Shown here piece after piece: positions 14,468-37,322 of a DNA stretch of 37,335 bases. Source of the stretch: Paracoccaceae bacterium. Its GTDB lineage: Bacteria > Pseudomonadota > Alphaproteobacteria > Rhodobacterales > Rhodobacteraceae. Each line of letters opens with the position of its first letter. Within the stretch, counting starts at the first letter, position 1. The stretch covers positions 1 to 37,335 of the forward strand of contig JAFIEO010000055.1 of NCBI GenBank assembly GCA_020832445.1, in the 5' to 3' direction. Position numbers and translations under genes: made by a program. Below the pieces are notes generated by a model. That model was not told the origin of the DNA and made no database searches. It saw only the letters and a program-made list of their open reading frames with translations.

Positions 14468-14641
14468 CCCAAGGCGCGGAATCAAGGGCGCAGCCCGCCG
14501 CGCCATCGGCGGGCCGTCCCGCGGCCTGCCGATTTGGCAAGTGACACACCAAGCCATTGGTGCCGGAGTATGCAGCCTGCATAAACTGCATTCCTATAAG
14601 GTCGGATCGGCAGACCCCGGCCCACCGATAGCGCGGGCTTT
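14468..14641 (-). repeat. structured intergenic repeat, copy A
   Basis: One of four ~175-bp related elements in the window. Arms GCGCCATCGGCGGGCC (14500-14515) and GGCCCACCGATAGCGC (14619-14634) pair, followed inward by TGCCGAT (14527-14533) with ATCGGCA (14606-14612). Inside are three small hairpins: CCT-ATA-AGG (14593-14601), TATGC...GCATA (14569-14583) and TTGG/CCAA (14534-14552, 9-nt loop). Strand is given as minus because G.U wobbles occur only on that strand. It lies between the permease stop and the GTA leader, which together fill the gap 14299-14768. No gene is seen in this gap. Confidence 0.85.
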
Positions 14642-14768
14642 ACCCAAGGGTGAAGGGCAGGTTCAGGCCAGTTCCGCCCAGCCTTGCGATTCCGTCCGAC
14701 ATGACAATGCCATATGCGCAGCTCAAACCCGGCCACATGCCGCCAAACCCCTGCCGCGCCACCCCAGC

Positions 14769-16604
14769 CTATAGCGGCCAGAAAATCGGGATGAAAAATG
14801 CCGCCACGACCGCCAGAACAATGTTCATGGGAATCCCGACCCGAAGGAAATCTGTGAATCTGTAACCGCCCGGTCCGTAAACAAGCGTGTTGGTCTGATA
14901 TCCGATCGGGGTCGCAAAAGATGCGGATGCCCCCATCATGACCGCCACGACCAGACCCCGCGGATCAATGCCGAGCGCCAGCCCCAAGCCAATGACAATC
15001 GGGGTCAAAATAACTGCGACCGCGTTATTTGTTACCAGTTCTGTCAGGAAGCTCGTCAACGAGTAGACGGCGAGCACCAGTAAAACAGGCGGCAACCCAG
15101 ACATGTAAGGGGCGAGCGTTGTCACAATCAGCGCCACCGCGCCCGATGCCTGTAGCCCCGCCCCAACCCAAAGCATCGCGAAAATAAGCGCCAGCAATCG
15201 CCCGTCAATGAAGCCAAACGCCTCATCTGCGTCAATGCAGCGCGTCAGCAACACCACCGCCACCCCCGCGAAGGCCATCAGCGAAATCGGGGCCAGATTC
15301 AACGCCGAGAAAATGACAATCGCCATCAAGGTGGCAATGACGATGGGCGCATGCCCGCGCCGGTAGGCGCGTTCGGATGTCAGCGTGATATCCCCCAGAT
15401 TCATGTCCTGCGCCAGCCGCTGGATGTCTTCGGGCGTGCCTTCCAGCAGCAGCGTGTCGCCCACACGCACCACCAGATTTTCGAAATTCGTGCCGATATT
15501 CTGGTTCCTGCGATGCACGGCCAGCGGATAGACCCCGTAGCGTCTGCGCAACCGCATGCCCCCCAGCGCGCGGCCCACCATTTTGCAATCGGGGGGGATC
15601 AGCACCTCGACGGTGGTGGTCTGCACTGATGACAGGCGGTCGACATCGCGGGCAGTGTCTATGCCGGGCGACAAGATACCCGCCTCGCGGGCTTCTTCGA
15701 CCTGGGCCACATCCTTGTTGGCCTTCAGACCCAGAACTTCGGAAATCTGGGTGCGCAACACCACACGGTCGCCCGCCTGCAAGACCACCGCGCCCATGTC
15801 CCAGCGCAACGACGTGTCCCCGCGCAACACGTCAATCACCCGCGCCCCTTCGCGCTTGAACAGGTCCACATCGCCGATTTTGCGACCAATCAACCCCGAG
15901 GTTTCGGGAATCGCCACTTCGGTAAAGAATTTGGTGCGCCCGCGATCGGCCATGATATCGCTCATGGAACTGCGTTCGGGCAGCAGGTGACGGCCCACCA
16001 GCACCAGATAGGCCACCCCCACCACGGCCATGATGGCGCCCAGTTTGGTAATCTCGAACACTGAAAACGGGGCCAGCCCGTTGGCGCGTGCCACCCCGTC
16101 CACCAACAGGTTGGTGGATGTGCCGATCAAGGTCAGCGTGCCGCCCATGATGGACAGGTAACTTAGGGGAATCAGCAGCTTGGAGGATGTGGTTTTCAGC
16201 GTCTTGGCCAAAGTGATGAACACGGGGATCATGACCACCACAATCGGGGTGTTGTTCACAAACGCAGACAGGCCCAGCACGGTCAGCGTCAGAATGGACA
16301 GGGTCAGCACGGGGGCGGTTTTCACATGTTTGATCGCCAGTTGCGTGATCCAGTCCAACGCGCCCGTGCGCACCAGCGCGCCCACAATGATGAACAGCGC
16401 GCCGATGGTCCAGGGCGCATGATTCGACAGCGCCGCAAAGGCTGCATCGCGCGGCAAAATGCCCAGGATCAGCATCGCCACCGCGCCGCCAATGGCTGTC
16501 ACCTCGACTGGATATATTTCTTTCATGAAGGCAATGAACATGCCCACAACAATAGCCAAGGCAATAATGGCCTGCGCAGTCTGGCCCAGTTCCAAACCCA
16601 GCAT
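14769..16604 (-). CDS. SLC13-family anion permease with two RCK_C domains
   Basis: A 611-residue inner-membrane permease of the SLC13 / divalent anion symporter group, of the type with two central TrkA-C (RCK_C) domains. Hydrophobic helices occupy about 10-215 and about 420-611. The two half-site motifs are FVNNTPIVVVMIPVFI with GTSTNLLV in the first half and VTNNAVAVILTPIVIG with GYQTNTLV in the second, the pattern of Na+-coupled transporters. The soluble middle (about 225-400) contains repeated IGRKIGDVDL- and VGRALGGMRL-type segments of RCK_C domains, which may sense a ligand. Substrate (sulfate, dicarboxylate or other anion) cannot be decided. GGGGG lies four bases before the ATG, and a weak promoter TTGCAA-17-AATAAG lies at 16651-16679. 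An upstream extension to 16679 was rejected. Confidence 0.9.
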   Translation of the reverse strand: MLGLELGQTAQAIIALAIVVGMFIAFMKEIYPVEVTAIGGAVAMLILGILPRDAAFAALSNHAPWTIGALFIIVGALVRTGALDWITQLAIKHVKTAPVLTLSILTLTVLGLSAFVNNTPIVVVMIPVFITLAKTLKTTSSKLLIPLSYLSIMGGTLTLIGTSTNLLVDGVARANGLAPFSVFEITKLGAIMAVVGVAYLVLVGRHLLPERSSMSDIMADRGRTKFFTEVAIPETSGLIGRKIGDVDLFKREGARVIDVLRGDTSLRWDMGAVVLQAGDRVVLRTQISEVLGLKANKDVAQVEEAREAGILSPGIDTARDVDRLSSVQTTTVEVLIPPDCKMVGRALGGMRLRRRYGVYPLAVHRRNQNIGTNFENLVVRVGDTLLLEGTPEDIQRLAQDMNLGDITLTSERAYRRGHAPIVIATLMAIVIFSALNLAPISLMAFAGVAVVLLTRCIDADEAFGFIDGRLLALIFAMLWVGAGLQASGAVALIVTTLAPYMSGLPPVLLVLAVYSLTSFLTELVTNNAVAVILTPIVIGLGLALGIDPRGLVVAVMMGASASFATPIGYQTNTLVYGPGGYRFTDFLRVGIPMNIVLAVVAAFFIPIFWPL

Positions 16605-16936
16605 TCTACCCCCTGACGCCCCGAAATTTCCGGTCTGGCCGTTGCCGCAACTTATTGCGGGTCCGCCGCGCCATTGCAAGCCCGCGCGATATATCCAAGG
16701 GGGCGCACAGCCATCGGCCCTGCATGACAGCTACATTTCTGGGCAATCTGGGGCATGGCGAAGGGTGCCTGCGTGACCTTTGGGCTGTGGCACGCGCGCG
16801 GGGGTGGGGCGTGGCCGATATGCTACTGGCCGCGCTGGGGTGGCGGGGTGGAGGCCTTTGCGGTCATTCATTTACTTTGAATTCCGATTGCCTATAGTGC
16901 TTTAGGCACGCTGAAGTTGTTGCCGAAGGGGCGCGG
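16605..16936. other. 332-bp intergenic region between divergent permease and LRR genes
   Basis: This stretch should hold the promoters of both divergent genes. I see a candidate permease promoter (16651-16679, minus) and a candidate LRR promoter (16871-16898, plus). A 57-codon open frame (16724-16897, plus) exists but has no recognisable similarity and no good ribosome site, so I do not call it. No tRNA, repeat copy or mobile element is visible. Confidence 0.5.
16871..16898 (+). promoter_or_regulatory. candidate sigma-70 promoter of the LRR gene
   Basis: TTTACT (16871-16876) and TATAGT (16893-16898) are separated by 16 bases, and the stretch is distinctly AT-richer than its surroundings. Transcription would start near 16905, about 30 bases before the ATG at 16937. 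The match is moderate and the call is by inspection only. Confidence 0.4.
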
Positions 16937-17989
16937 ATGAGCGACGCAGACATTGCCTATAAAAAGGCCCAAATAGAAATCGGGCGACTCAAGGAGGCGG
17001 GCAAGGGGATATTGCGGTTGGAAGGCGAAGCGTTCCGCGCCCTCGACCGCCTTCCGCCGGAACTAGCAGAGCTGACAGGTCTGCGGGTTATAAGGTTGTG
17101 TGGTACACAGGTCAGCGACCTCGAGCCACTGCAAGGCCTGACAGGTCTGCTTAAGCTTCATTTCGATCACACGCAGGTCAGCAGCCTCGCGTCGCTGCAA
17201 GGCCTGACAAGCCTGCAGACGCTCGTCGCCAGCAACACACAGGTCAGCGACCTGCGCCCTATTGCGCAATTGGAGAGCCTTGCAGCAACCTCGGACATTA
17301 TGGGCCTTAGCTTCCACAGTACCCCAGCCACCCAGCGTGATGCCCATCTGGCAGCAATGGCGGAAATTGAGGGCCCGCGAGGGCGCGCTCGCCAAACATT
17401 AGACTATCTGCGCAGCCTGCCGCCTTGGCCCGCCCCTTACACTCCCGACGACAGTTCGCCACAACCGATTGGTGGCGAGCCTGAAACGACGAAAGTCAAA
17501 GCCGCTAAGGCACATATCGAGAATTTACTGAATAATCCGATGCTCACCCGTCTAAGCGCGCAGCAATTTGCAGGCCAGATCAGGACGGCCTTGCATGGCA
17601 TAAATGATCTGCCTGAAGCCCTGTTAACCATGTTGGAATTTGCGGATGCGCTGGAGATGATCGCGCCTGCCACCGAGCGAGTCACTGCCCCACTCGGCCG
17701 CGCAAAGCTTGAATTGCGCATTGCGCATCTAGAAGCAACACTAGAGCGCCTTCATGAGCAATTGGAGGACAAAACCAAAGCCCTAGAAGCGGCCAAGGTA
17801 TTGGCAGGCAATGGCGCGTTTGGGCGAAACTTCACAGAAGAGGCCGGAAAGCAAACCGCGAAACTAGTGTTTTTGATTCCCAAGGCTGTTATGTGGGTAG
17901 GTATTTACCACGCAGCCACACATTTACTAGGAGCGGGCAATCCGGTGCTTCAAGCGTTTTCGTCTTTTATGAGTAACGGCGCTAAATAA
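16937..17989 (+). CDS. leucine-rich repeat protein with coiled coil and C-terminal hydrophobic segment
   Basis: A 350-residue protein of unknown function. Residues about 38-112 carry short bacterial leucine-rich repeats of 22 residues with the pattern TQVSDLxPLxGLTxLxxL; the DNA repeats with a 66-bp period (ACACAGGTCAGC-type units start at 17105, 17171 and 17237). Residues about 195-250 are helical. About 255-290 looks like a coiled coil (LELRIAHLEATLERLHEQLE). About 308-335 is hydrophobic (LVFLIPKAVMWVGIYHAATH) and could be a membrane anchor or pore-like helix. There is no signal peptide. Base composition is lower in GC than the neighbours, and the gene stands alone between two copies of the structured repeat, suggesting recent acquisition. 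LRRs usually bind proteins; the partner is unknown. Confidence 0.8.
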   Translation: MSDADIAYKKAQIEIGRLKEAGKGILRLEGEAFRALDRLPPELAELTGLRVIRLCGTQVSDLEPLQGLTGLLKLHFDHTQVSSLASLQGLTSLQTLVASNTQVSDLRPIAQLESLAATSDIMGLSFHSTPATQRDAHLAAMAEIEGPRGRARQTLDYLRSLPPWPAPYTPDDSSPQPIGGEPETTKVKAAKAHIENLLNNPMLTRLSAQQFAGQIRTALHGINDLPEALLTMLEFADALEMIAPATERVTAPLGRAKLELRIAHLEATLERLHEQLEDKTKALEAAKVLAGNGAFGRNFTEEAGKQTAKLVFLIPKAVMWVGIYHAATHLLGAGNPVLQAFSSFMSNGAK

Positions 17990-18001
17990 GCGAACGTCCG
18001 C

Positions 18002-18078
18002 ACAGTCCCGCGCTGCCGCCATCCGGCCTGTATCCTCTCATGCAGCGCTGTCGAGAGGGCGCGGGAAGTGTGGACTGT
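18002..18078 (+). promoter_or_regulatory. long inverted repeat downstream of the LRR gene
   Basis: ACAGTC plus CCGCGC (18002-18013) can pair with GCGCGG (18059-18064) and GACTGT (18073-18078), giving a two-part stem with an asymmetric internal loop, 13 bases after the LRR stop codon. No T run follows. It could act as a 3' barrier between the convergent LRR and phosphoesterase genes. With repeat copy B it accounts for the gap 17990-18372, in which I see no gene. Confidence 0.4.
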
Positions 18079-18114
18079 CCTCTTGCGGCTCTCAGGGCGG
18101 TGCGGGCGTTTGTT

Positions 18115-18289
18115 AAAGCCCGCGCCAGCGGTGGGTCGGGGTCTGCCGATCCGGCGTTTGAGGCGCGCAGTTTATGCGAGCTGCATATTCCCAAGATCAT
18201 AGGCTTGGCATGACATCAGCCAAACCGGCAGGCCGCGGGAAGGCCCGCCGATGGCGCGGCGGGCTGCGCCCTTTGCCCCGCGCCTTGGG
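18115..18289 (+). repeat. structured intergenic repeat, copy B
   Basis: Same family as copies A, C and D, in the convergent space between the LRR gene and the phosphoesterase gene. It begins AAAGCCCGCGCC and ends CGCGCCTTGGG. The outer arms pair with two G.U wobbles on the plus strand, the inner stem is TGCCGAT with ATCGGCA-like ACCGGCA, and the internal hairpins are a weak GCG...CGC, TATGC...GCATA, and TTGGC with GCCAA (18205-18223, 9-nt loop). A 3' alternative stem GGCGCGG/CCGCGCC overlaps the outer arm. Confidence 0.85.
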
Positions 18290-18372
18290 GTTTTCCCGAT
18301 GTCTGCAAAAGGGCAACTTAACCAGCCTTGCGATTTATGACCGCGCCCCTGCGCGACATGCGTCCGCCCCAA

Positions 18373-19227
18373 TCAGCCCGAAACCCCTGCCACGCCCGAC
18401 AGGTCCAGCGCGGATGGTCCCGCCTGCGGCAGCCGCCCGCCGATGCGCACCATTTCAATGCGGGTGGCCTGCCCTGTGCGGTCATCGGTTTCAATATAGG
18501 TGCCCGACACAGTGACCGCCCCTTGCGCGGGTTCGAACCTTGCGCGCGGCATGCCGGTGATAAAGCGGCGCATGGGTTCGTCTTTTTGCATGCCGATCAC
18601 GGAATCATAATCGCCGCACATGCCCGCATCGGACTGAAACGCCGTGCCGCCTGCCAGAATCTGGGCATCGGCTGTGGGGATATGGGTGTGCGTGCCCACC
18701 ACAAGGCTGGCGCGCCCGTCGCACCACAGCCCCATGGCGGCCTTCTCGGATGTGGCTTCGCAATGAATATCCACAATCGCGGCCTGCACCATGCCGCCAC
18801 GCGGATGGGCGCGCAGCACCGGATCAATCGCGGAAAACGGGTCGCTATAGGGCTGTTTCATGAACACCTGCCCCAGCGCCTGCGCCACCAGAACACGCCG
18901 CCCGCCCGCTGCATCAAACACCCGCGCGCCCGCACCGGGGGCACCGGATTTGGCAATATTCAGCGGCCTGATGATGCGTGCTTCCTGCGCGCAGAATTCG
19001 CGCATGGTTTTCTGGTCGAACGCATGATCGCCCAATGTGATGACATCAGCGCCCGCCTCCAGCAGCGCTTTCGCGTGTTCAGGCGTCAGCCCCATGCCGC
19101 CTGTGGCGTTTTCGCCATTCACAACCGTGAAATCCAGCCGCCAGTCGCGGCGCATAACCGGCAAAAGCGCGGCTACCGCTGCGCGCCCTGCCCGTCCCAT
19201 AACATCGCCCAGAAACAATATTCGCAT
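18373..19227 (-). CDS. YmdB-family metallophosphoesterase (TIGR00282 type)
   Basis: A 284-residue cytoplasmic metallophosphoesterase. Metal-site motifs appear in order: GDVMGRAGR (7-15), VNGENATGG (about 37-45), LGDHAFD (about 65-71), DIHCEATSEK (about 150-160) and GTHTHIPTAD (about 178-187), followed by GMCGDYDSVIG, the family signature. Members such as Bacillus YmdB hydrolyse cyclic nucleotides in vitro and affect global gene expression; the substrate in this lineage is not known to me. The start ATG at 19227 is the only one giving the Rossmann-like MRILFLGDV beginning. It stands alone on the minus strand, convergent with the LRR gene. Confidence 0.9.
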   Translation of the reverse strand: MRILFLGDVMGRAGRAAVAALLPVMRRDWRLDFTVVNGENATGGMGLTPEHAKALLEAGADVITLGDHAFDQKTMREFCAQEARIIRPLNIAKSGAPGAGARVFDAAGGRRVLVAQALGQVFMKQPYSDPFSAIDPVLRAHPRGGMVQAAIVDIHCEATSEKAAMGLWCDGRASLVVGTHTHIPTADAQILAGGTAFQSDAGMCGDYDSVIGMQKDEPMRRFITGMPRARFEPAQGAVTVSGTYIETDDRTGQATRIEMVRIGGRLPQAGPSALDLSGVAGVSG

Positions 19228-19284
19228 GCGCGCATCTCATAGGGCTGTGCGCCCATCAGGGCAAGGCGAAACCGCATGCATGCG

Positions 19285-19755
19285 TCAGCGCGCGGACACC
19301 TGCAAGCGCACCAGTTGGGTCAGCGGCACGCCAAGCGCGCGAAACCCGTCCAGCGACAACTGGCTGCCCGCACCCGCAGGCGCACCTGACGGGCGCAATT
19401 CGACCAGTGCTGTGGTTCCGTCCGGTGCCTGAATGCGCCCCGGCATCACTTGCGTGACCAGCCCCGTGCGCAGCCATAATCCTGTTTCCGTGGGCGCACC
19501 AAGTCCGGCCAATGTGTCGCCAAGCGCCTGTCCGGGTACCGCAGCCGCAACGGCCGTGGGCGCTGTGGCATCACCATCCGGTTCATCATCAGGGCGGGTC
19601 ACAGGGCGCACGGTCTGCCCATCAGCGGCCTGCGCCACGGCGCGCGCTTCGCCCCGGTCAGCGGCAGAGCGGCCGAACGGGCCGGGAAACTGCGCGCAGG
19701 CCGACACCACCAGCACAGGCAGCAAAAAGATTACAGGATGCGGCATATATTTCAT
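19285..19755 (-). CDS. small putative lipoprotein, function unknown
   Basis: A 156-residue protein starting MKYMPHPVIFLLPVLVVSAC. The hydrophobic signal and lipobox (VVSAC, cysteine at residue 20) predict export and lipid attachment. After a low-complexity acidic/alanine linker (about 30-75), a folded C-terminal part contains GAPTETGLWLRTGLVT (about 86-101) and SLDGFRALGVPLTQLVRLQV. Similar short proteins occur in related bacteria, but I do not know a function. The frame extends 12 codons upstream to 19791, but the signal peptide fits best from 19755. A candidate promoter (GAACAA/AGTCTA on the plus strand, 19763-19791, read on minus as TTGTTC-17-TAGACT) would start transcription almost at this ATG, giving little or no leader. 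Confidence 0.72.
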   Translation of the reverse strand: MKYMPHPVIFLLPVLVVSACAQFPGPFGRSAADRGEARAVAQAADGQTVRPVTRPDDEPDGDATAPTAVAAAVPGQALGDTLAGLGAPTETGLWLRTGLVTQVMPGRIQAPDGTTALVELRPSGAPAGAGSQLSLDGFRALGVPLTQLVRLQVSAR

Positions 19756-19838
19756 AATATTCAGTCTAATGTGAATGATGAGAGAGAACAATCATCTTCG
19801 CGCTTGCCGCACGCATCAGTGATGGTTACCTTCACTTC

Positions 19839-20843
19839 ATGACAGCACCCCTTATTGACCCGTTTGCCCGTCCGATTTCATACCTGCGTGTCTCGGTCAC
19901 GGACCGTTGTGATTTCCGCTGTGTCTATTGCATGGCTGAAAACATGACCTTCCTGCCCAAGAAGGAACTTCTGACGCTGGAGGAACTGGACCGCATGTGT
20001 TCGACCTTCATCCGGCTTGGGGTCGAGAAACTGCGCATTACCGGCGGCGAGCCGCTGGTGCGCAAGGGAATCATGACATTCTTCCAGTCCATGACGCGCC
20101 ATCTGGATGCAGGCACCCTGCGCGAGCTGACGCTGACCACCAATGGCAGCCAGTTGCGCCGCTATGCGCAGGATCTGGCCGATTGCGGGGTGCGGCGGGT
20201 GAATATTTCGCTCGATACGCTGGATGACCAGAAATTCGCCGATATCACCCGCTGGGGCCGTCTGCCGCAGGTGCTGGACGGTATTGACGCAGCCCAGAAT
20301 GCGGGACTGCGCGTCAAGATCAACGCGGTCGCGCTGAAGGGGTTTAACGAGGATGAATTGTTCAGAATGGTCGAGTGGTGCGGCAGCCGCGACATGGACC
20401 TGACCTATATCGAGGTTATGCCAATGGGCGATCTGGGCAATGAGGACCGGCTGGACCAATACTGGCCCCTGTCGGACCTGCGCGCGCGGCTGGCCGAACG
20501 CTTTACCCTGACCGATCTGGCCGAACGATCGGGTGGGCCAGCGCGCTATGTGCGGCTGGAAGAGACGGGCCAGAAAATCGGCTTCATCACGCCGCTGACG
20601 CATAATTTCTGCGAAAGCTGCAACCGCGTGCGGCTGACCTGCACGGGCGAGTTGTATATGTGCCTTGGTCAGGAAGATATGGCCGATCTGCGCGCGCCCC
20701 TGCGCGCCAGCGACGATGATGCGCTGCTGGAACAGGCCATCCGCAATGCCATTGCGCATAAGCCCAAAGGCCATGATTTCGACTATTCCCGCCAGAAGGT
20801 CGACGGACAGATGACCCGCCACATGAGCCATACAGGCGGGTAG
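19839..20843 (+). CDS. moaA: GTP 3',8-cyclase, molybdenum cofactor biosynthesis
   Basis: A 334-residue radical SAM enzyme that converts GTP to 3',8-cyclo-GTP in the first step of molybdopterin synthesis. The N-terminal [4Fe-4S] site is C24-x3-C28-x2-C31 in CDFRCVYC, followed by the SAM-binding [10 protein letters not shown]. The second C-terminal cluster is C258-x2-C261-x13-C275 in [11 protein letters not shown]. The chain ends in the conserved double glycine (SHTGG) that reaches into the active site. All key residues are present and length is normal. It is divergent from the lipoprotein gene, and repeat copy C follows its stop codon by 34 bases. No other moa gene is in the window. Confidence 0.97.
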
Positions 20844-20877
20844 CGGGTCGAGTCTGGCCAGAAGGTCGCGTTGAGTG

Positions 20878-21053
20878 CCCAAGGCGCGGAGCAAAGGCCG
20901 CAGGTGGCCCGCGCCATCGGCGGGCCGTCCCGCGGCCTGCCGATTTGGCTGTTGGTGCTCCAAGCCTTTGAAGTAAGTATATGCCGCCTGCATAAAGTGA
21001 ACTTCACTCGCGGCGGATCGGCAGACCCCGGCCCGACCGATGGCGCGGGCTTT
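20878..21053 (-). repeat. structured intergenic repeat, copy C
   Basis: Same family, here between moaA and eda. Outer arms GCGCCATCGGCGGGCC and GGCCCGACCGATGGCGC pair with a single bulged base, and TGCCGAT pairs with ATCGGCA. Internal hairpins are AGTGA-ACT-TCACT (20996-21008), TATGC...GCATA, and TTGG/CCAA (20945-20963, 9-nt loop). The right flank (tttgtccatgccccaaca) also matches the flank of copy D in inverse orientation. The rest of the gap 20844-21213 shows no gene. Confidence 0.85.
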
Positions 21054-21213
21054 GTCCATGCCCCAACACCCCCTTCAGCCCCAATCCCCCCCGCCAAACG
21101 GCCTGTTTCCCCCCGATCCGGTTGTCCCGCACCACCCCAGCCTTGCGCGGGCGCGTGCTTCGCGCTATTGCCGTTAGCGCAATCACCCCCTTTCGCCGCC
21201 GCAGGAGCGACCA

Positions 21214-21855
21214 ATGACCCCCACCGAACAAAGCGAACGCGCCCTGAAACTGTGCCAGCTGGCCCCTGTCATTCCGGTTCTGGTCATTCATGATCTGGCC
21301 CATGCACGCCCCTTGGCCGAAGCACTGGTCGCGGGCGGCCTGCCGGTTCTGGAAGTGACGCTGCGCACGGATTGCGCGCTGGACGCCATCGCACAAATGG
21401 CACAGGTCGAAGGGGCCGTTTTGGGCGCGGGCACAGTTCTGACGCCAGCGCAGATGGAAGCGGCGCGCAATGCAGGCGCAATTTTTGCGGTATCACCGGG
21501 GTCAACACCGGCGCTGCTGGACGCGGCGCGCGTGAACGACATGGCGCTGCTGCCCGGTGCGCAAACCTGCTCGGAAGTGATGGCGCTGCTAGAGCAGGGC
21601 TACAGCGTGCAGAAATTCTTTCCCGCCGAATCCGTGGGCGGGGCGGGCGCGCTGAAATCCATTGGCGGGCCATTGCCACAGGTCACCTTCTGCCCCACAG
21701 GCAGCATTACACCCGCGCTTGCGCCCGATTACCTGAAACTGCCGAATGTCGCCTGCGTGGGCGGCAGCTGGGTTGCGCCCAAGGCCATGATGGACGCGGG
21801 CGACTGGGCGGGCATCACAGCACTTGCGCGCACAGCCGCCACCCTGCCCCGCTAG
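21214..21855 (+). CDS. eda: 2-dehydro-3-deoxy-phosphogluconate (KDPG) aldolase
   Basis: A 213-residue class-I aldolase of the Entner-Doudoroff pathway, splitting KDPG to pyruvate and glyceraldehyde 3-phosphate. The catalytic glutamate is E47 in LEVTLRT, and the Schiff-base lysine is K134 in VQKFFPAES. The phosphate-binding and glycine motifs GAGTVL (71-76), SPGSTP (94-99) and CVGGSWVAP near the C-terminus are intact. GGAG in 'cgcaggagcgacc' precedes the ATG. It could also act on related keto-deoxy acids. No edd is present nearby. It is separated from moaA by repeat copy C, so it is probably transcribed on its own. Confidence 0.95.
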   Translation: MTPTEQSERALKLCQLAPVIPVLVIHDLAHARPLAEALVAGGLPVLEVTLRTDCALDAIAQMAQVEGAVLGAGTVLTPAQMEAARNAGAIFAVSPGSTPALLDAARVNDMALLPGAQTCSEVMALLEQGYSVQKFFPAESVGGAGALKSIGGPLPQVTFCPTGSITPALAPDYLKLPNVACVGGSWVAPKAMMDAGDWAGITALARTAATLPR

Positions 21856-22762: not shown

Positions 22763-22779
22763 AGCCGGGTGCGGCTTTT
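22762..22779 (+). terminator. short intrinsic terminator of the L,D-transpeptidase gene
   Basis: AAGCCG (22762-22767), loop GGTG, CGGCTT (22772-22777), then TT and a G: a 6-bp stem overlapping the last base of the stop codon with a short T run. It sits in the 26-bp space between convergent genes. The stem is short, so termination may be partial. Confidence 0.5.
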
Positions 22780-22788
22780 GCCCAACGG

Positions 22789-23208
22789 TCAGAATATGCC
22801 GTTCTCGCGCTGCACCGCGCGAATATAATCAATGATGCGGGCGATCTGCCCCTCGGTCAGGTCGGGTTGGCGCGGCATGTTGCCATAGTCCCAATGATGG
22901 GCCTGCACCCCCAGTTGCACAGCTGCGTAAAACGCCCCGTCCGGGTGGTGCGATGTCTCGTAGATGATATGCACCAGCGGCGGGCCAATACCTTCGGCGC
23001 CCGCGCCATGATCCCCGTGGCAGGTGGCACAGTTCTGCGCGAAAAGCGTGGCACCTGCGGCCTGCGTGTCGGTAAATTCGGCAGGCAACACCACATCGAC
23101 CATGGCCGCCGCTGTGACGGGCACGTCAGCGCGCGGCCATGCCCAGACGGCCAGCAGCGCCACCACACCCACAATTGCGGCAATCACCCCTACGCGCTGA
23201 GCGGCCAT
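22789..23208 (-). CDS. membrane-anchored mono-heme cytochrome c
   Basis: A 139-residue class-I cytochrome c. Residues about 5-24 form one membrane anchor or uncleaved signal. The heme motif CATCH is at 60-64, and the likely axial methionine is M111 in DYGNMPRQP, the normal spacing. It would carry electrons at the periplasmic face; the partner is unknown and no oxidase or dehydrogenase gene is adjacent. The ATG at 23208 lies inside the end of the upstream amidotransferase gene (19-bp overlap), suggesting co-transcription. Longer starts in the same frame (to 23307) would add a basic arginine-rich stretch and are rejected. Confidence 0.88.
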   Translation of the reverse strand: MAAQRVGVIAAIVGVVALLAVWAWPRADVPVTAAAMVDVVLPAEFTDTQAAGATLFAQNCATCHGDHGAGAEGIGPPLVHIIYETSHHPDGAFYAAVQLGVQAHHWDYGNMPRQPDLTEGQIARIIDYIRAVQRENGIF

Positions 23209-25574: not shown

Positions 25575-25580
25575 GAGGGA

Positions 25581-30013: not shown

Positions 30014-30033
30014 TCCCGCCCCCTTTGCCATGC

Positions 30034-30314: not shown

Positions 30315-31568
30315 ATGACGACCCGCAAAACCCTGATCCTGTCGACAGCCATTGCCCTATGCGCAACGGGCACAGTTGCACAAGATGTCACGCTGACAAT
30401 CGAAAGCTGGCGCAATGACGACATTTCCATCTGGCGCAACCAGATCATTCCCGCGTTTGAAGCCGCGCATGAGGGCATCAAGCTGGATTTCCAGCCGATG
30501 GCGCCTGCACAATACAATTCCGCGCTGAATTCCAAACTTGATGCGGGCACCGCAGGCGACATTATCACCTGCCGCGCCTTTGACGCATCGCTGCAACTGT
30601 TTGAACGCGGCCAGCTGTCCGACCTGACCGGTCTGGACGGGATGGAAAACTTCTCGGATGTGGCGAAATCGGCATGGTCTACGGATGATGGCAGCCAGAC
30701 ATTTTGCGTGCCGCTGGCATCCGTCATCCATGGGTTCATCTATAATACCGAGATTTTCGAGGAACTTGGCCTTGAAGTTCCCACCACCGAAGATGAATTC
30801 TTTGCCGTCCTGGACGCGATTGACGCGGATGGCGGCTATATCCCCATGGCCATGGGCATCAATGACCAGTGGGAAGCCGCGACCATGGGCTATGCCAATA
30901 TCGGGGTGAATTTCTGGGGTGGCGAGGCAGGACGCGCGGCCCTGATCGCGGGCGAAAGCAGCCTGACAGATGATGCATGGGTGGAACCGTTCCGCCAGCT
31001 GGCCCGTTGGGCACCCTATCTGGGCCGCGGGTTTGAATCGCAAAGCTATCCTGACAGCCAGAACCTGTTCACGCTGGGGCGTGCGGCAATCTATCCGGCC
31101 GGATCATGGGAAATTGCCGGATTCCGCGAACAGGCCGATTTTGAAATGGGGGCATTCCCGCCGCCTGTCCCCGCGGGGACTGACGGCTGTTTCATCTCGG
31201 ATCATACCGATATGGGAATCGGGCTGAACGCAGCATCCGCAAATCAGGAAGAAGGACGTGCCTTCCTAAGCTGGCTGACCGGCAGCGAGGCATCAAGCCT
31301 GCTGGCCAACGCCATTCCGGGCTTCTTCCCGCTGTCCAGCGCCGAAGTGACACTGGAAGACCCGCTGGCGCAGGAATTCATTGGCTGGCGCGAGCAATGC
31401 GAAAGCACCATCCGGCCCTTTCACCAGATCGTTTCGCGCGGCACGCCGAACCTGTCGAACGAAAGCTGGACCGCTGCGGCAAATGTGATGCGCGGCACAT
31501 GGACACCGGAAGAAGCGGGCGAAGCGCTGCAATCGGGCCTGTCATCGTGGTATGCGCCGCATCAATAA
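30315..31568 (+). CDS. ABC transporter sugar-binding protein (family 1 extracellular solute-binding)
   Basis: A 417-residue periplasmic binding protein of the CUT1 sugar type. Residues 1-22 form a Sec signal peptide ending TGTVA before QDVTLTIESW. The fold motifs IWRNQIIPAFEAAHEGIKLD (about 37-56) and SWLTGSEASSLLANAIPGFF (about 315-335) are those of MalE-like proteins. AAGGAGG lies six bases before the ATG at 30315; the much longer upstream frame is discarded. It is the first gene of the rightward operon. By context it should bind GlcNAc, chitobiose, MurNAc or muropeptide sugar; the exact ligand cannot be read. A strong hairpin follows the gene. Confidence 0.93.
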   Translation: MTTRKTLILSTAIALCATGTVAQDVTLTIESWRNDDISIWRNQIIPAFEAAHEGIKLDFQPMAPAQYNSALNSKLDAGTAGDIITCRAFDASLQLFERGQLSDLTGLDGMENFSDVAKSAWSTDDGSQTFCVPLASVIHGFIYNTEIFEELGLEVPTTEDEFFAVLDAIDADGGYIPMAMGINDQWEAATMGYANIGVNFWGGEAGRAALIAGESSLTDDAWVEPFRQLARWAPYLGRGFESQSYPDSQNLFTLGRAAIYPAGSWEIAGFREQADFEMGAFPPPVPAGTDGCFISDHTDMGIGLNAASANQEEGRAFLSWLTGSEASSLLANAIPGFFPLSSAEVTLEDPLAQEFIGWREQCESTIRPFHQIVSRGTPNLSNESWTAAANVMRGTWTPEEAGEALQSGLSSWYAPHQ

Positions 31569-31577
31569 GTGCCATTT

Positions 31578-31604
31578 GCGGCCCCTGAGTTGATCAGGGG
31601 CCGC
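31578..31604 (+). promoter_or_regulatory. intercistronic hairpin after the binding-protein gene
   Basis: GCGGCCCCTGA (31578-31588), loop GTTGA, TCAGGGGCCGC (31594-31604): a perfect 11-bp stem starting 9 bases after the stop codon, without a T run. Hairpins at this place in sugar ABC operons usually protect the binding-protein message, so that it is made in excess over the permeases. Confidence 0.7.
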
Positions 31605-31632
31605 GTCATTCCCGCCACTACCGGAGGGTTCC

Positions 31633-32571
31633 ATGCCCCAGCCCCGCCGCCGCGCACCGCGCAGCCCCGTCCGCTGGCATATTGCCGTGTTTCTGGCCCC
31701 TGCTGTGCTGATCTACACTGCGATCATGATCATCCCGCTATTTGGCACGCTGAATCTGTCGCTGTTCACACGCGGCGAAGGGGGGGCGCGCGAATTTGTG
31801 GGGCTGGCCAATTTTGCCACGCTGTTTGGCGATCCGCGCTGGTCGGGGGCGTTCTGGAACGCAACAGGGAACAACCTGTGGTTTTTTGTCATTCATATGC
31901 TGGTGCAAAACCCCATCGGCATTGCGCTGGCGGCAATCCTGTCCACGCCGCGCCTGCGCTTTGCGGCCTTCTACCGCACGGCAATTTTCATTCCCGCAAT
32001 CCTGAGTTTCGTGATCGTGGGGTTTGTGTGGAAACTGATCCTGTCGCCGCTTTGGGGGGTTGCGCCCAATTTCATGGACGCGCTGGGGGTGGGCAACTGG
32101 TTCGCGCCATGGCTGGGGCTGGAGCGGTCCGCCCTGACCACGCTGGCGCTGATTTCAGTCTGGCAGTTCGTGGGCATTCCGTTGATGCTGATCTATGCCG
32201 CGCTTCTGTCCATCCCTGATGAAGTTCTGGAAGCCGCCGAAATGGATGGCATCACCGGCGCATCGCAGTTCTGGAAGATCAAGCTGCCGCTGATCCTGCC
32301 CACGATCGGCATCATATCCATCCTGACATTTGTCGGCAATTTCAACGCGTTCGATCTGATCTATGTCACCCAAGGGGCACTGGCCGGGCCAAATTACGCA
32401 ACCGATATTCTGGGCAGTTTCCTGTTCCGCACCTTCTTCGGGTTTCAGTTGCAGCTGGGTGATCCGCATATGGGCGCGACTGTGGCCACGGTGATGTTCT
32501 TCATCATTCTGGCGGGTGTGTCGCTGTATCTGTTCGGCGTTCAGACGCGGCTGCGCCGCTACCAGTTCTAG
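31633..32571 (+). CDS. ABC sugar permease, MalF-like
   Basis: A 312-residue CUT1 inner-membrane permease. A basic N-terminus (MPQPRRRAPRSPVRW) precedes the first helix (about 17-38), and five more helices follow. The cytoplasmic EAA loop is EVLEAAEMDGITGASQFWKI (about 197-216), the docking site for the ATPase, followed by KLPLILP. A GGAGG ribosome site (ACCGGAGGGTTCC) precedes the ATG. It forms the transport channel with the next gene product; the nine-base spacing between them supports a single unit. Confidence 0.95.
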   Translation: MPQPRRRAPRSPVRWHIAVFLAPAVLIYTAIMIIPLFGTLNLSLFTRGEGGAREFVGLANFATLFGDPRWSGAFWNATGNNLWFFVIHMLVQNPIGIALAAILSTPRLRFAAFYRTAIFIPAILSFVIVGFVWKLILSPLWGVAPNFMDALGVGNWFAPWLGLERSALTTLALISVWQFVGIPLMLIYAALLSIPDEVLEAAEMDGITGASQFWKIKLPLILPTIGIISILTFVGNFNAFDLIYVTQGALAGPNYATDILGSFLFRTFFGFQLQLGDPHMGATVATVMFFIILAGVSLYLFGVQTRLRRYQF

Positions 32572-32580
32572 GGGGTCGTC

Positions 32581-33417
32581 ATGTCTGCACGCGCCAATAT
32601 CCTGCGCAGTTCCGCCGCCCATGCGATCCTGATCGCCTATACGGTGCTGGCATTGTATCCGGTGGTGCTGATCGTCATCAATTCGATGAAATCACGCCGC
32701 GCCATTTTCAACGACCCGCTGTCGCTGCCCACGCGCGAAACATTCGATCTGGTGGGGTTTCATACGGTGCTGGAGCAGGGCAATTTCCTGCTGTATTTCC
32801 AGAATTCCATGATTGTCACTGTGGCATCGCTGTTTTTCGTGCTGCTGTTCGGGGCAATGGCGGCGTTTGCGCTGGCCGAATACCGCTTTCGCGGCAATCT
32901 GCTGATGGCGCTGTATCTGGCGCTTGGCATCATGATCCCCATCCGGCTGGGCACAGTGGCTATTCTGGAAATCATGGTTGCGGCAAATCTGGTCAACACG
33001 CTGACGGCGCTGATCCTTGTCTATACCGCGCAGGGCCTGCCGCTGGCGGTGTTCATCTTGTCGGAATTCATGCGGCAGGTGTCGGATGATCTGAAGAATG
33101 CCGCGCGGATTGACGGGTTAAGCGAATACCGCATCTTCTTTACCATCGCGCTGCCGCTGGTGCGCCCTGCCATGGCGACCGTGGGCGTATTCACCATGAT
33201 CCCCATCTGGAACGACCTGTGGTTCCCGCTGATCCTTGCACCGGGGGAAGCCACCAAGACACTGACACTGGGCAGCCAGATTTTCCTTGGCCAGTATGTC
33301 ACCAACTGGAACGCGGTTCTGGCGGCGCTGACACTGGCAATCTTTCCGGTGGTGGTGCTGTATCTGATCTTCTCGCGTCAATTGATCCGGGGCATTACAA
33401 AGGGGGCCGTGAAATGA
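32581..33417 (+). CDS. ABC sugar permease, MalG-like
   Basis: A 278-residue CUT1 permease with six predicted helices. The EAA loop reads LKNAARIDGLSEYRIFFTIA (about 171-190), followed by LPLVRPAMATVGVF, the MalG pattern. It pairs with the MalF-like subunit and the ATPase encoded at 34460. Its stop overlaps the oxidoreductase start as ATGA (33414-33417), so that enzyme is made together with the transporter. Confidence 0.95.
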   Translation: MSARANILRSSAAHAILIAYTVLALYPVVLIVINSMKSRRAIFNDPLSLPTRETFDLVGFHTVLEQGNFLLYFQNSMIVTVASLFFVLLFGAMAAFALAEYRFRGNLLMALYLALGIMIPIRLGTVAILEIMVAANLVNTLTALILVYTAQGLPLAVFILSEFMRQVSDDLKNAARIDGLSEYRIFFTIALPLVRPAMATVGVFTMIPIWNDLWFPLILAPGEATKTLTLGSQIFLGQYVTNWNAVLAALTLAIFPVVVLYLIFSRQLIRGITKGAVK

Positions 33418-34439
33418 TCCGTGTTCTGGTGACGGGGCTGGGCCAGATGGGCCTTAGCCATGCGCTGGCTTATGCCAAACTGCCCGAGTTTCAGGTTGTG
33501 GGGCTGGTGAACCGGTCCGATGTGGCCCTGCCCGATGCGCTGGCGCATCTGGACATTGACCGCGATTTCGACGCAGCACTGGCACGGCTGAAGCCCGATA
33601 TGGTGGCCATCGCCACCTATTCCGACAGCCATGCGGCCTATGCGATCAAGGCTATGAAGGCGGGTGCACATGTGTTTGTCGAAAAGCCGCTGGCCACGAC
33701 TGTGGCCGAGTGTCAGGCCGTGGCCGATACCGCCGCGCGCACGGGTCGCAAGCTGATGGTGGGCCATATCCTGCGCCATCACCCGACATGGATTGCGCTG
33801 ATTGCAGCGGCGCGCGACATGGGGCCGCCCTATGTGTTTCGCCTGAACCTGAACCAGCGTTCAAGCGGGCCGGCATGGGATATTCATAAAGCGCTGATGC
33901 AATCGACCCCGCCCATTGTGGATTGCGGCGTGCATTATGTCGATGTCATGTGCCAGATCACCGATGCCGCCCCCGTGGAAGTGCGCGGGATGGGCCTGCG
34001 CCTGTCAGATGAAATTGCGCCCGATATGTATAATTACGGGCATTTTCAGGTGATTTTCGCAGACGGGTCTTGCGGGTGGTATGAAGCGGGCTGGGGCCCG
34101 ATGATGTCAGAGACCGCGCATTTCGTCAAAGATGTGATTTCACCGCAAGGGGCCGTGTCCCTGCGCGCGCCCCAAGGCGTGGGGTCCGCCGATGTGGAAG
34201 GGCACACAGCCGCCGACCATCTGATCCATGCGCCCGCAGGACAGGGTGAATCCGTCACCACATTCGCGGACAGCCCCGGCCATCAGGGCCTGTGCGACTT
34301 GCAGGCCGCCGCGATGGCGCGCGCCATCGCGCAAGATCACGACATGTCGCGCCATATCAACGATGCCGTGCGGTCTGTCGCCGTCTGTCTGGCCGCGGAT
34401 GAAAGCGTGCGCACGGGCAAGACCGTGCGCATCGCATAA
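33414..34439 (+). CDS. Gfo/Idh/MocA-family oxidoreductase
   Basis: A 341-residue NAD(P)-dependent enzyme. The nucleotide-binding motif is [20 protein letters not shown] (4-23), with a glycine pattern GxGxx[13 protein letters not shown] (about 89-100) carries the invariant EKP lysine, and [11 protein letters not shown] (about 173-183) supplies the catalytic histidine region. It sits inside an amino-sugar transport operon, so the substrate is probably an N-acetylated sugar or a glycoside thereof. The same fold includes NAD-dependent glycosidases (GH109) that act by transient oxidation, so a glycosidase is possible as well as a plain dehydrogenase. The ATG at 33414 overlaps the permease stop. 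Confidence 0.9.
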
Positions 34440-34459
34440 CCAATACCAAGGAGGGCCTG

Positions 34460-35461
34460 ATGGGCAATCTGACACTTGATAAAGTCTGCAAGTCCTTCGG
34501 CACGGTCGATGTGATCCGCGAAGTTGACCTGACGGTGAATGACGGCGAATTCTGTGTCTTTGTCGGCCCCTCGGGGTGCGGAAAATCCACGTTGCTGCGC
34601 ATGATCGCGGGGCTGGAAGACATCACATCCGGCGAGGTGAAGATTGACGGGGCGGTGGTCAACACCACCCCGCCATCACAGCGCGAAATTGCGATGGTGT
34701 TTCAATCCTACGCGCTTTATCCGCATCTGAATGTGCGCGACAATATGGGGCTGGGGCTGAAACAGGCGGGCCAGCCGCGCGCGCAAGTCACGCAAACGGT
34801 AGATCGTGCGGCAAAAATGCTGGATCTGGACGCCTATCTGACGCGCCGGCCTGCGGAATTATCGGGCGGGCAGCGCCAGCGCGTGGCCATTGGCCGCGCC
34901 ATTGTGCGCAAGCCCAAGCTGTTTTTGTTTGACGAACCGCTGTCCAATCTGGATGCGGCGCTGCGCGTGCAAACCCGCATTGAGATTGCCAACCTGCACC
35001 GCGAGTTGGGCGCGACCATGATCTATGTGACCCATGATCAGGTCGAGGCCATGACACTGGCCGACCGGATTGTGGTGTTGCGCGACGGTCGCATTGAACA
35101 GGTCGGCGCCCCGATGGAGCTGTATAAAAACCCCGCGAATGAATTCGTCGCGGGCTTCATCGGGTCGCCCAAGATGAACTTTCTTGACGCGCCCGCGCTG
35201 GGCGTGGCGGGCAAAAGCCTTGGTATTCGCCCCGAACACCTGACCTTGTCGCAGGATAAGGGCATGATCGAAGGGCGCATTAGCCATGTGGAACAACTGG
35301 GCGGTGAAACGCTGATTTACCTACGCGCAGACCCGCATGGCCTGATTACCGTGCGCCTGTTTGGTGAACACGCCGCCGAGATCAATGACCGCGCCTTTGT
35401 GACCCCCGACATGGCCCGCGCGTTTCATTTTGGCGCAGATGGACAGCGCCTGAGCATGTGA
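34460..35461 (+). CDS. ABC transporter ATPase, MalK/UgpC type
   Basis: A 333-residue ATPase that powers the importer. Walker A is GPSGCGKST (36-44), the Q-loop glutamine is Q82 in VFQSYALYP, the signature LSGGQ is at 134-138, Walker B ends in FDEP (157-160), and the switch histidine is H192 in YVTHDQ. A C-terminal TOBE-type regulatory domain (about 235-333) is typical of MalK/UgpC. AAGGAGG precedes the ATG (ACCAAGGAGGGCCTG). Database labels often read 'glycerol-3-phosphate', but context points to an amino sugar. It is the last transporter gene before murQ. Confidence 0.95.
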
Positions 35462-35496
35462 TAAACCCGCAAAACCGACATAAAAGGCCCGTATGC

Positions 35497-36384
35497 ATGA
35501 CCGAATTTTCCGACCCCCGCTACCGTGATCTGGACCGCTGGGACAGCCTGACCGCCCTGCGCGCCATCTGGGAAAGCCAGATGGCCGCGATTGCCAGCAT
35601 TGGCCCTGCCCTGCCCGCGCTGGCCGATCTGGTCGAGGGGGCCTTGCCCCGCCTGCGCGCGGGCGGGCGGCTGGTCTATGCGGGCGCGGGCACATCCATC
35701 CGCATTGCCGTGCAGGATGGCACCGAACTTGGGCCGACCTTCAACTGGCCCGACGCGCGCACGCAGTATCTGATTGCGGGCGGTGAAGCGGCGTTGAAGC
35801 TGGGCATTGAAGGCGCGGAAGACGACGCAGATGATGCCCGCGATCAGGTGGCGCGCGCAGGTATTGACGCGCGCGATGTTGTCATCGGAATTGCCGCAAG
35901 CGGGCGCACCCCCTTTACGGTGGCGGCGGTGGCGCGCGCGCGCGCGGCGGGCGCGCTGACCATCGGGATTGCGTGCAATGGCGGCACCCCCCTTCTGGAC
36001 GCAGCGGAACATGCCATCACCACTGAAACCGGCGCCGAAGTGCTGGCAGGGTCCACCCGCATGAAGGCAGGCACGGCGCAAAAGGTGGTTCTGAACATGA
36101 TTTCCACGCAGATCATGGTGCGGCTGGGCCATGTGCATGATGGGCTGATGGTCGATATGCGGCCCCAGAACATCAAGCTGCGGGGGCGCGCGCAGGCTAT
36201 GGTCCAGCGCATTTCGGGTGTGCCTGCGCAGGCGGCCACAGCCGCGCTGGAAAAATGCGACTGGCAGGTGAAACCGGCAGTGCTGGTCGCCATGGGCGCG
36301 ACCCCTGACGGCGCGGATGCCGCACTTGACCGCGCAGGCGGCATATTGCGCGACGCCATGGCCGCACAGCAGGCCGCGTCATGA
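35497..36384 (+). CDS. murQ: N-acetylmuramic acid 6-phosphate etherase
   Basis: A 295-residue SIS-domain etherase that splits MurNAc-6-phosphate into GlcNAc-6-phosphate and D-lactate. YAGAGTSIRIAV (61-72) is the phosphate-binding loop. The catalytic acids are E77 in DGTELGPTF and D109 in EGAEDD, matching E83 and D115 of the E. coli enzyme. LAGSTRMKAGTAQKVVLNMI is the family signature. The usual CPPTF is LGPTF here, with the glutamate kept. A GTG at 35458 would add 13 residues and overlap the ATPase gene; the ATG at 35497 fits family length. Its presence is the best evidence that MurNAc is a substrate of this locus. It overlaps gntR by four bases. Confidence 0.93.
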   Translation: MTEFSDPRYRDLDRWDSLTALRAIWESQMAAIASIGPALPALADLVEGALPRLRAGGRLVYAGAGTSIRIAVQDGTELGPTFNWPDARTQYLIAGGEAALKLGIEGAEDDADDARDQVARAGIDARDVVIGIAASGRTPFTVAAVARARAAGALTIGIACNGGTPLLDAAEHAITTETGAEVLAGSTRMKAGTAQKVVLNMISTQIMVRLGHVHDGLMVDMRPQNIKLRGRAQAMVQRISGVPAQAATAALEKCDWQVKPAVLVAMGATPDGADAALDRAGGILRDAMAAQQAAS

Positions 36385-37115
36385 GTTTGCACCACGATCT
36401 TCTGGCCTCGCGCGCAGAAGACACGCCCATCTATGTCCGGCTGGCCGCGATTTTGCGCGAGAAGGTCCAGCAAGGGGAGTTTGCGGTGGGCGATGCGCTG
36501 CCATCCGAGCGCGACATTGCCGAACGCATGGCGGTGTCACGCGTCACGGTGCGCAAGGCGATTGACCTGTTGATGCGCGAAGGCGTGCTGTCGCGCAAAC
36601 ACGGGTCCGGCACCTATATCGCGCCGCGCATTGAACAGCCGTCCTCCATGCTGGCGGGGTTTTCCGAAGATCTGCGCAGGCGCGGGCTGGTGGCGGGGTC
36701 TGTCTGGCTGGAAAAATCGACCGACACCGCATCGCCTGATGAGGTGATTGCCTTCGGGCTGGCAGTGAATGCGCGCGTCAAACGGTTCCGGCGCATTCGC
36801 ACGGCAAATGGCGAACCGCTGGCGCTGGAGCATGCCATCATTCCCGAAACCTACCTGCCTGATCATGACAGTGTGGAGAATTCGCTTTATGCGGCCCTTG
36901 ATGCAGTGGGCAACAAGCCGGTCACGGGGCTTCAGCGCGTCACGGCATCGCTTGCATCTGAGGAAGAGGCGCAGAACCTTGGTGTGCCCAGCGGGGCGGC
37001 AGTGTTGCGGATTGAACGACGCGGCTACCTGAGTGACGGCACCATGGTGGAGTTAACAAGATCGGCCTATCGCGGGGACCGTTATGATTTTGTCAGCGAA
37101 TTGCGCGAGATCTGA
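36381..37115 (+). CDS. GntR-family regulator with UTRA domain (HutC/NagR type)
   Basis: A 244-residue transcription factor. The winged helix-turn-helix covers about 14-80 (ALPSERDIAERMAVSRVTVR followed by GVLSRKHGSGTYIA). The UTRA effector domain covers about 90-235 with FGLAVNARVKRFRRIRTANG and the C-terminal VELTRSAYRGDRYDF. Relatives such as NagR/DasR bind GlcN-6-P or GlcNAc-6-P and repress amino-sugar genes. The likely sites are the two inverted 16-bp elements at 30039-30054 and 30219-30234. As the last gene of the operon it should be autoregulated. Repeat copy D follows 32 bases after the stop. Confidence 0.93.
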   Translation: MSLHHDLLASRAEDTPIYVRLAAILREKVQQGEFAVGDALPSERDIAERMAVSRVTVRKAIDLLMREGVLSRKHGSGTYIAPRIEQPSSMLAGFSEDLRRRGLVAGSVWLEKSTDTASPDEVIAFGLAVNARVKRFRRIRTANGEPLALEHAIIPETYLPDHDSVENSLYAALDAVGNKPVTGLQRVTASLASEEEAQNLGVPSGAAVLRIERRGYLSDGTMVELTRSAYRGDRYDFVSELREI

Positions 37116-37147
37116 CACGGGCGTGACGGGGATGTTGGGGCATGGAC

Positions 37148-37322
37148 AAAGCCCGCGCTATCGGTGGGCCGGGGTCTGCCGATCCGACGTGTGAGACACG
37201 CAGTTTATGCAAGCTGCATACCCCTACCTTAATGGCTTGGCGTGCCGCTGGCCAAATCGGCAGGCCGCGGGACGGCCCGCCGATGGCGCGGCGGGGGGCG
37301 GCCCTTGGTCCCCGCCAGTTGG
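37148..37322 (+). repeat. structured intergenic repeat, copy D
   Basis: Same family as A-C. It begins AAAGCCCGCGCTATCGG and ends near TTGG at 37319-37322; the last 40 bases are more diverged than in other copies. The outer arms pair with two G.U wobbles on the plus strand. Internal hairpins are CGTGT-GAG-ACACG (37188-37200), TATGC...GCATA, and TTGGC-9 nt-GCCAA (37237-37255). The left flank from about 37127 also resembles the flank of copy C. It fills the region after gntR; no gene is seen there. Confidence 0.83.

Follow-up and report, generated by a model that had tools for sequence, protein, structure and literature searches.

A high-copy palindromic element of Rhodobacteraceae occupies fixed intergenic sites at which its copies are replaced, often in inverted orientation

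The stretch of DNA analyzed here (the window, 37,335 nucleotides) is a whole contig, JAFIEO010000055.1, of the 4.08-Mb, 99-contig draft genome GCA_020832445.1 of a Paracoccaceae bacterium belonging to the Rhodobacteraceae. It carries four copies (a to d) of a non-coding intergenic repeat, which align end to end and occur twice in each orientation, as an initial annotation of the window had described. Beyond that annotation, we determined the true ends of the element, found a core of it across the family, and observed that copies are replaced, often by inverted ones, at fixed sites. Our preferred reading, held tentatively, is that of a non-autonomous, non-coding DNA hairpin element with fixed sites, the copies of which are exchanged in either orientation by some process.

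Sites are retained while the copies in them are replaced

Sites were compared between the genome containing the window (the query genome) and that of Roseinatronobacter sp. S2, a complete genome from Nanopore plus Illumina data according to an excerpt of PMC10508151. Elements were masked and their flanks, which are about 96% identical, were matched between the two genomes. In a test of 100 query copies, no flank was located for 41 and a single flank for 15 in the S2 stretches covered. The comparison itself used 45 sites with both flanks. The S2 copy had the same orientation at 27 of these sites, was inverted at 17, and one site was counted as empty. The same-orientation pairs showed a mean identity of 0.906, with 18 of the 27 at or above 0.88 (one at 0.879, rounded), similar to the flanks. 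For the inverted pairs the mean identity was 0.76, compared to 0.758 for random paralogues, and none of the 17 reached 0.88. Nine same-orientation sites fell below 0.88, and at six of them the sequence in common with S2 was no longer than is usual for random pairs. At many of the 26 sites whose junctions were inspected, identity of the flanks reaches the TGGCC or GGCCA end of the element and a different copy lies inside; at some, the nearest flank has diverged as well.

This first count of occupancy was biased, because the S2 regions used had for the most part been selected for containing elements, and it was repeated on two contiguous 400-kb stretches of S2. In these 800 kb, 16 query sites were located with both flanks, of which 10 held a copy in the same and 4 in the inverted orientation, and 2 were counted as empty; 6 further query sites had one flank (three near contig ends), and 13 S2 elements without a matched query site were left out of the counts. 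Six of the 14 occupied sites were new, namely five in the same orientation (one above 0.88) and one inverted. Every query site located with both flanks in S2 retains either a copy or a deletion remnant: at L016 and L080 a copy with an internal deletion, inverted in the case of L016 (judged by eye), and at L096 the terminal arms only.

Adding the two tables by hand gave 50 distinct occupied sites, 20 with an unreplaced copy and 30 with a copy replaced as a whole or in part. None of the 20 unreplaced copies was inverted, and the replaced ones were divided into 12 in the same and 18 in the inverted orientation. Inversion thus goes together with replacement (Fisher p = 8e-6). Site L092, which falls below 0.88 only through an internal deletion in the S2 copy, was counted as unreplaced; if it is counted as replaced, p = 1.2e-5. 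The split of 12 against 18 is compatible with a 1:1 ratio (p = 0.36).

A third genome, that of Roseinatronobacter sp. HJB301, gave a similar picture. Between S2 and HJB301, 4 sites had the same and 4 the inverted orientation and 2 of the 10 were counted as empty; between the query genome and HJB301 the numbers were 7, 5, and 2 of 14. At L095 the query genome agrees with HJB301 and the S2 copy is inverted, which places the change in the lineage of S2. The genus of genome G009, considered as a second one for the replacement test, holds one genome. Suggestive evidence from one site (S3) comes from Pseudosulfitobacter plasmids, which are about 97.6% identical and carry different elements in opposite orientation there.

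Ends and copy number of the element

In an alignment of 102 query-genome copies with 150-nt flanks, conservation sets in sharply at TGGCC and ends at GGCCA (these distinct copies were drawn from 108 stretches, many of them overlapping). The unit in the window measures 228–240 nt with the termini TGGCC...GGCCA in copies a to c, copy d being cut by the contig end. The repeats first delimited (copy a at 14468–14641) are therefore real, but their ends had been drawn 23–39 nt too short, and 13 nt too short at the contig end. Most query-genome copies are 219–233 nt long and six are cut at contig ends. Among 96 copies of at least 205 nt, TGGCC was present with at most one mismatch in 75 and GGCCA in 69, and both were exact in 25. 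For target-site duplications, of which the initial annotation saw no convincing case, 53 copies with clear ends showed no clear excess of matching flanks at k from 2 to 10.

The expectation that four copies in one contig imply very many in the genome was borne out. A 33-nt pattern of the right arm, allowing up to 3 mismatches, matched 104 times genome-wide and the reversed control 0 times, and a covariance model (E ≤ 1e-6) gave at least 116 copies, i.e., 137 matches minus 21 that overlapped a stronger match on the opposite strand. The number of 116 is a lower bound, as scoring was limited to 150 of 4097 candidates, among which some of the copies at contig ends were missing.

Two kinds of variation within and around copies were also noticed. 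Query-genome copies combine short alternative alleles in different ways, for example TGATGGCA or CAGCGACA and, at the ends, TTTTGC or GAAG. Some copies in the query genome and S2 are surrounded by an outer inverted module, with GGTTGAAACATCCGG-like sequences in 19 and CAAGGCTGGTTGA-like sequences in 23 of 218 flanks compared to 1 and 3 after shuffling.

The arms covary as one long hairpin

The two arms of the element, each about 65 nt long in a unit of 170–230 nt, are inverted, imperfect copies of each other. Run on 44 copies from Roseinatronobacter and other genera, RNAalifold yielded a long rod that pairs strands 1 and 4 and strands 2 and 3. In this rod 93.6% of the alignment cells are paired and double changes occur in 12 of the 33 pairs (91 cells), with none of 500 shuffles as high. 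Slid out of register, the rod had 29–46% of cells paired, a control that favors the rod since this was drawn by hand from the same alignment. An alternative fold into local hairpins pairs 89.3% of the cells, with 94.0% in the 1-2 helix and 73.9% in the 3-4 helix; the 1-4 helix of the rod (92.1%) lies below the local 1-2 hairpin. Pairs found only in the rod fail in 0 of 44 rows (columns 72–161) and in 3 of 44 (columns 55–172), and the pair 161–172, found only in the 3-4 hairpin, fails in 24 of 44. Rod and local hairpins share strands, and both folds, and hence bistability, may matter.

A separate hairpin near the left end, designated the first hairpin, also covaries: among 96 query-genome copies, one inner-stem pair reads C-G in 44 and G-C in 42, and the 44 diverse copies show double changes at three pairs, 7 at one and 2 at each of the remaining two. 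Hairpin pairs comprised 1330 Watson-Crick, 13 G-T, and 33 A-C combinations in 1435 cells. An RNA made from the plus strand would show more G-U than A-C combinations, which is not seen and points to constraint or correction at the level of DNA. For an RNA from the minus strand the G-U count would be 33 of 1435, which leaves some room for such a transcript. Overall, a hairpin of DNA is more probable than an RNA, because the arms covary as one long hairpin, wobble pairs are few, and the orientation of the copies ignores gene direction.

Copies lie mainly between convergent genes

The earlier statement that all copies lie downstream of stop codons becomes, genome-wide, a strong bias toward convergent gene pairs. 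With genes called by a simple codon-usage method, the gap is convergent for 68 of the 90 query copies with usable flanks, tandem for 22, and divergent for none, compared to 16, 131, and 16 of 163 background gaps, and copies lie at a median of 43 nt from the stop codons. No orientation is preferred in convergent gaps (37/31) or in tandem gaps (12 with the genes, 10 against). The bias in context was weaker among 72 copies that came largely from relatives (about six were from the query genome, and the gene calls were rougher), 32 of which were convergent, 29 tandem, and 11 divergent; in the tandem gaps 19 were oriented with the gene and 10 against it.

The neighbors of the four window copies, a permease gene, a leucine-rich repeat (LRR) gene, moaA, and a gntR-type gene, are unrelated, as stated before. 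A recurrent neighbor that could be a mover was not found, the 144 neighboring proteins examined forming clusters of at most 3. Within window positions 14000–21400, a region containing copies a to c and not copy d, eight terminator-like patterns were found (7.4 expected by chance), one of them beside copy a (14400–14420) and none inside the copies.

A core of the element is spread through the Rhodobacteraceae

The exact right-arm pattern, searched in 84,980 named genomes in a screen that may omit records near the window, matched only Roseinatronobacter sp. HJB301, in 35 stretches. The left-arm pattern gave 94 matches in S2, 61 in HJB301, 11 in G179, and 6 in G411, and none in the other 7 of 11 genomes. 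G179 and G411 represent two further species of the genus, and at two sites with the same neighbor genes (L172/L175 and L179/L188) both have copies.

Partial DNA matches were obtained in 83 of 394 genomes of the family. They correspond to an element of about 170 nt with the same plan, and all 48 loci examined were matched by a profile, which had been built from 44 sequences among these same loci, some of them one place fetched twice. The TGGCC and GGCCA termini are not general in other genera, each being found near 6 of the 48 copies. Using covariance model R1, the core of about 170 nt was detected in 51 of 120 genomes representing different genera of the Rhodobacteraceae, counting the query genome. 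Copy numbers per genome ranged from 1 to 22 or more, 22 being the scoring limit. In a sample of the class it was present in 2 of 141 genomes besides the query, one of the same family and one with a weak match. The filters applied in these two surveys were strict, so that weak matches were lost. Two queries against a phage collection, in a search that did not extend to viral contigs, gave no match. Pseudosulfitobacter plasmids (L364–L366) contain a divergent type of the element, which scores 28–29 bits with the family profile and lies in the same kind of gaps. In genome G152, the gene of the small RNA (sRNA) SorX (Rfam RF02784) lies near a copy (L069, 2857–2931, minus strand).

Comparison with known repeats and RNAs

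Among the closest known parallels are repetitive extragenic palindromic (REP) sequences and their hairpin-forming doublets (REPINs). In the available parts of PMC3733652, PMC3116915, and PMC8049555 these are described as high-copy palindromes near 3′ ends that are moved by REP-associated tyrosine transposases (RAYTs), some having been seen to excise; those parts mention neither Rhodobacteraceae hosts nor replacement in opposite orientation. Like REPINs, the element described here is a high-copy extragenic inverted pair of palindromes that can form a long hairpin, lies between convergent or unidirectional genes, and persists in lineages. Unlike REPs and REPINs, with units of 20–40 nt, it has arms of about 65 nt in a whole of 170–230 nt, and it is replaced in either orientation at fixed sites. 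Of the tags of that family, GTAG occurs in at most 4 of 44 rows at any one column, and the 24 of 44 rows with CGTC have it within the loop that joins strands 1 and 2, not at the foot. Mobilization by a RAYT or Y1 transposase (PF01797) was considered and rejected: the query genome gave no match, in agreement with the absence of a transposase noted before. Among 16 element-bearing genomes the domain exceeded the curated cut-off in 2 and stayed below it in the other 14, of which 13 had no match and S2 a weak one; 5 of 14 control genomes were matched.

The earlier suggestion of an element of the type of miniature inverted-repeat transposable elements (MITEs), moved in trans, fits in that the element is short, non-coding, and present in high copy number with terminal inverted repeats (TGGCC/GGCCA), and would be moved in trans if at all. 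In contrast to MITEs, no target-site duplication was detected and the terminal repeats do not hold for other genera in general; a mover was not found, nor was a parent transposon identified, in an analysis that made no search aimed at one. ERIC/IRU, Bru-RS, and RIME are mosaic intergenic palindromes of 100–250 nt from different hosts, and their likeness to the present element is one of description only.

Structured RNA motifs such as the S-adenosylmethionine/S-adenosylhomocysteine (SAM/SAH) motif of Rhodobacterales (in an excerpt of PMC2864571) are likewise restricted to a lineage and recognized by covariation, but the present element has no recurrent neighbor gene, many copies per genome, and both orientations. 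The available portions of PMC2864571 and PMC4809877 contain no such element. A known Rfam RNA was also rejected, as no family matched the element at gathering score in the window or in 11 loci of relatives, the latter giving only the unrelated SorX. A description was not found in the open-licence literature, which is weak evidence of novelty.

How copies might be replaced

Several observations bear on the unit that is exchanged. At replaced sites, copies match from the outer end inward over a median of 6 nt, as do copies at unrelated sites, which indicates that mostly the whole element is exchanged; the means are slightly higher (9.4 vs. 7.0 for inverted sites) because some sites keep 19–36 nt of an arm. 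The two most similar pairs of query copies are alike over the whole length between TGGCC and GGCCA, and in 10 similar pairs inspected the likeness never extends beyond the ends. Internal deletions that join CCGAT to GGCGCGG leave the arms in place (S2 loci L325 and L363). In HJB301, the segment corresponding to window positions 14768–21053 (L153, 4501–20000) is inverted relative to its neighbors, with copies at both junctions and two in tandem at one of them, and elements also lie at the ends of a plasmid inversion between the Pseudosulfitobacter strains H46 and SC33-90. Such internal deletions and copy-flanked inversions fit a DNA that forms hairpins and recombines.

A single strand of the element can fold into one long hairpin, and we propose that most replacements would be single events writing a whole copy into an existing site. 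The writer might be a trans-acting recombinase or transposase, or repair following breakage of the hairpin, and with inverted ends the two orientations would be equivalent. Parts of copies would, in addition, be patched by homologous exchange. A long hairpin may be acceptable between converging genes, and might even be maintained there as a two-way 3′ boundary.

A number of findings weigh against this proposal. Resident arms of 19–36 nt were kept at some replaced sites (L095, L057, L027, L029, L033), and L025 and L033 are only partly replaced, in the same orientation, with 150–178 nt in common with S2. In most of the 10 similar pairs the likeness stops inside one arm. Homologous exchange therefore acts as well. 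The paralogues of replaced copies are only slightly closer than those of unreplaced ones (query p = 0.03, S2 p = 0.41), copy a folded as DNA was not better than its shuffles (z score −1.3, one copy), no mobilizing enzyme was found, and the query genome is a draft. The comparison of occupied and empty sites in relatives, proposed in the initial annotation, revealed many sites shared with S2 but no intact empty one: the three S2 sites counted as empty are internal-deletion remnants, and a search with a loose pattern gave many chance-like matches and nothing convincing.

RecA-type gene conversion between dispersed copies, combined with a separate flipping of the hairpin via its own arms, is a possible though rather less probable explanation. 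It would account for the mosaic alleles inside copies, the replacement of patches at the site of copy b, L025, and L033, the 141-nt identical stretches common to two pairs of loci, the difference in one arm seen in most of the similar pairs, and the resident arms retained at a few sites. Independent flipping should, however, hit unreplaced copies too, yet inversion is seen in 0 of 20 of these compared to 18 of the 30 replaced copies. With 229 nt of homology, moreover, the resident orientation would be expected to prevail, for which the ratio of 12 to 18 gives no sign. The lack of flipped unreplaced copies and of any preference for the resident orientation leads us to prefer a single, orientation-blind event involving the whole copy. 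An artifact of draft assembly, as a source of the inverted contents, seems very improbable. The query genome consists of 99 contigs, several of which end inside copies, but the overlap is exactly 141 nt for two pairs of contig ends. This suggests that the assembly used a word of 141, a length at which copies of about 76% identity would not be confused. Inverted contents also occur at 4 of 10 sites between the complete S2 genome and HJB301, and at L095 it is S2 that differs.

A structured RNA, either a 3′-untranslated region element or an sRNA, dispersed through the family is unlikely. This idea, raised already in the initial annotation as a dispersed regulatory RNA, draws on the conserved structure with its double changes, on conserved unpaired stretches such as ATAAAGCGC, on the z scores of −5.3 and −4.5 for the two strands of L005 folded as RNA, and on the lean of relatives' copies with the gene in tandem gaps. 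It is weakened by the deficit of G-T relative to A-C pairs, the unbiased orientation in the query genome, the changes of orientation at shared sites, and the lack of an Rfam match; copy a matches Guanidine-II far below threshold (13.6 of 32 bits). We consider it slightly less likely still that the element is a two-way transcription terminator kept by selection without mobility of its own. The convergent-gene bias, the short distance to stop codons, and the fact that no query site with both flanks in S2 has lost its element entirely would agree with such a role, but terminator-like patterns are absent from copies a to c, at least 116 copies and a patchy presence across genera require copying, and in one relative a copy follows an apparent terminator (L061, by eye).

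The exchange of whole hairpin copies at fixed sites thus remains our preferred reading. A bolder version, about which we are doubtful, would be a class of mobile DNA, present across the Rhodobacteraceae, for which the occupation of new sites matters less than the overwriting of resident copies at fixed chromosomal sites, as whole units in either orientation, by a dedicated non-RAYT enzyme. This abundant intergenic element of a whole bacterial family separates the inheritance of the site from that of the copy, two things that bacterial repeats usually leave confounded. Each pair of closely related genomes provides dozens of natural replacements, and the question how palindromic repeats stay alike, by transposition, gene conversion, or hairpin repair, thereby becomes countable.

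The copies in the window and their surroundings

Copy a (14443–14670, plus strand) is a full element with a decayed left end, delimited by the 102-copy alignment and matched by the covariance model with E = 1.4e-33. Its first hairpin (14473–14504) has the outer stem GGCGCGG...CCGCGCC and the inner stem GGGC-GCA-GCCC, which is GGCC/GGCC in other copies. Strands 1 and 2 (ATCGGCGGGCCG ... CGGCCTGCCGAT) follow at 14505–14533, assigned by covariation, the local 1-2 hairpin being well kept too, and strands 3 and 4 (ATCGGCAG ... GGCCCACCGATAGCGCGGGC) lie at 14606–14638, assigned by the right-arm pattern and covariation. The copy is located 3′ of a CitMHS-type permease gene and about 260 nt upstream of a terminase gene, and S2 has a 97% identical copy at the same site in the same orientation. 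Copy c (20855–21082, plus strand), 3′ of moaA, has a 98% identical counterpart at the same site of S2; both a and c are thus unreplaced relative to S2.

Copy b (18076–18315, minus strand) lies between the LRR gene (stop at 17989) and a convergent YmdB-like gene (stop at 18373), and a patch of about 35 nt at its outer end has been replaced relative to S2 (by eye). Copy d (37119–37335, minus strand), 3′ of a GntR/UTRA regulator gene, is cut by the contig end, and its last ~35 nt are unlike S2, which may reflect poor sequence there. The LRR gene together with copy b (16937–18315) is seemingly absent from the matching place in HJB301, where about 185 nt are present. At 22773–23186, a cytochrome c gene ends in the query genome at a place where S2 and HJB301 have an element. 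Copy a is situated just upstream of a gene-transfer-agent-like cluster (80–14183, minus strand), which encodes a TIM-barrel/tail protein with an Rcc01698-like C-terminus, a DUF2460 protein, a baseplate hub protein, capsid, prohead protease, portal, and terminase.

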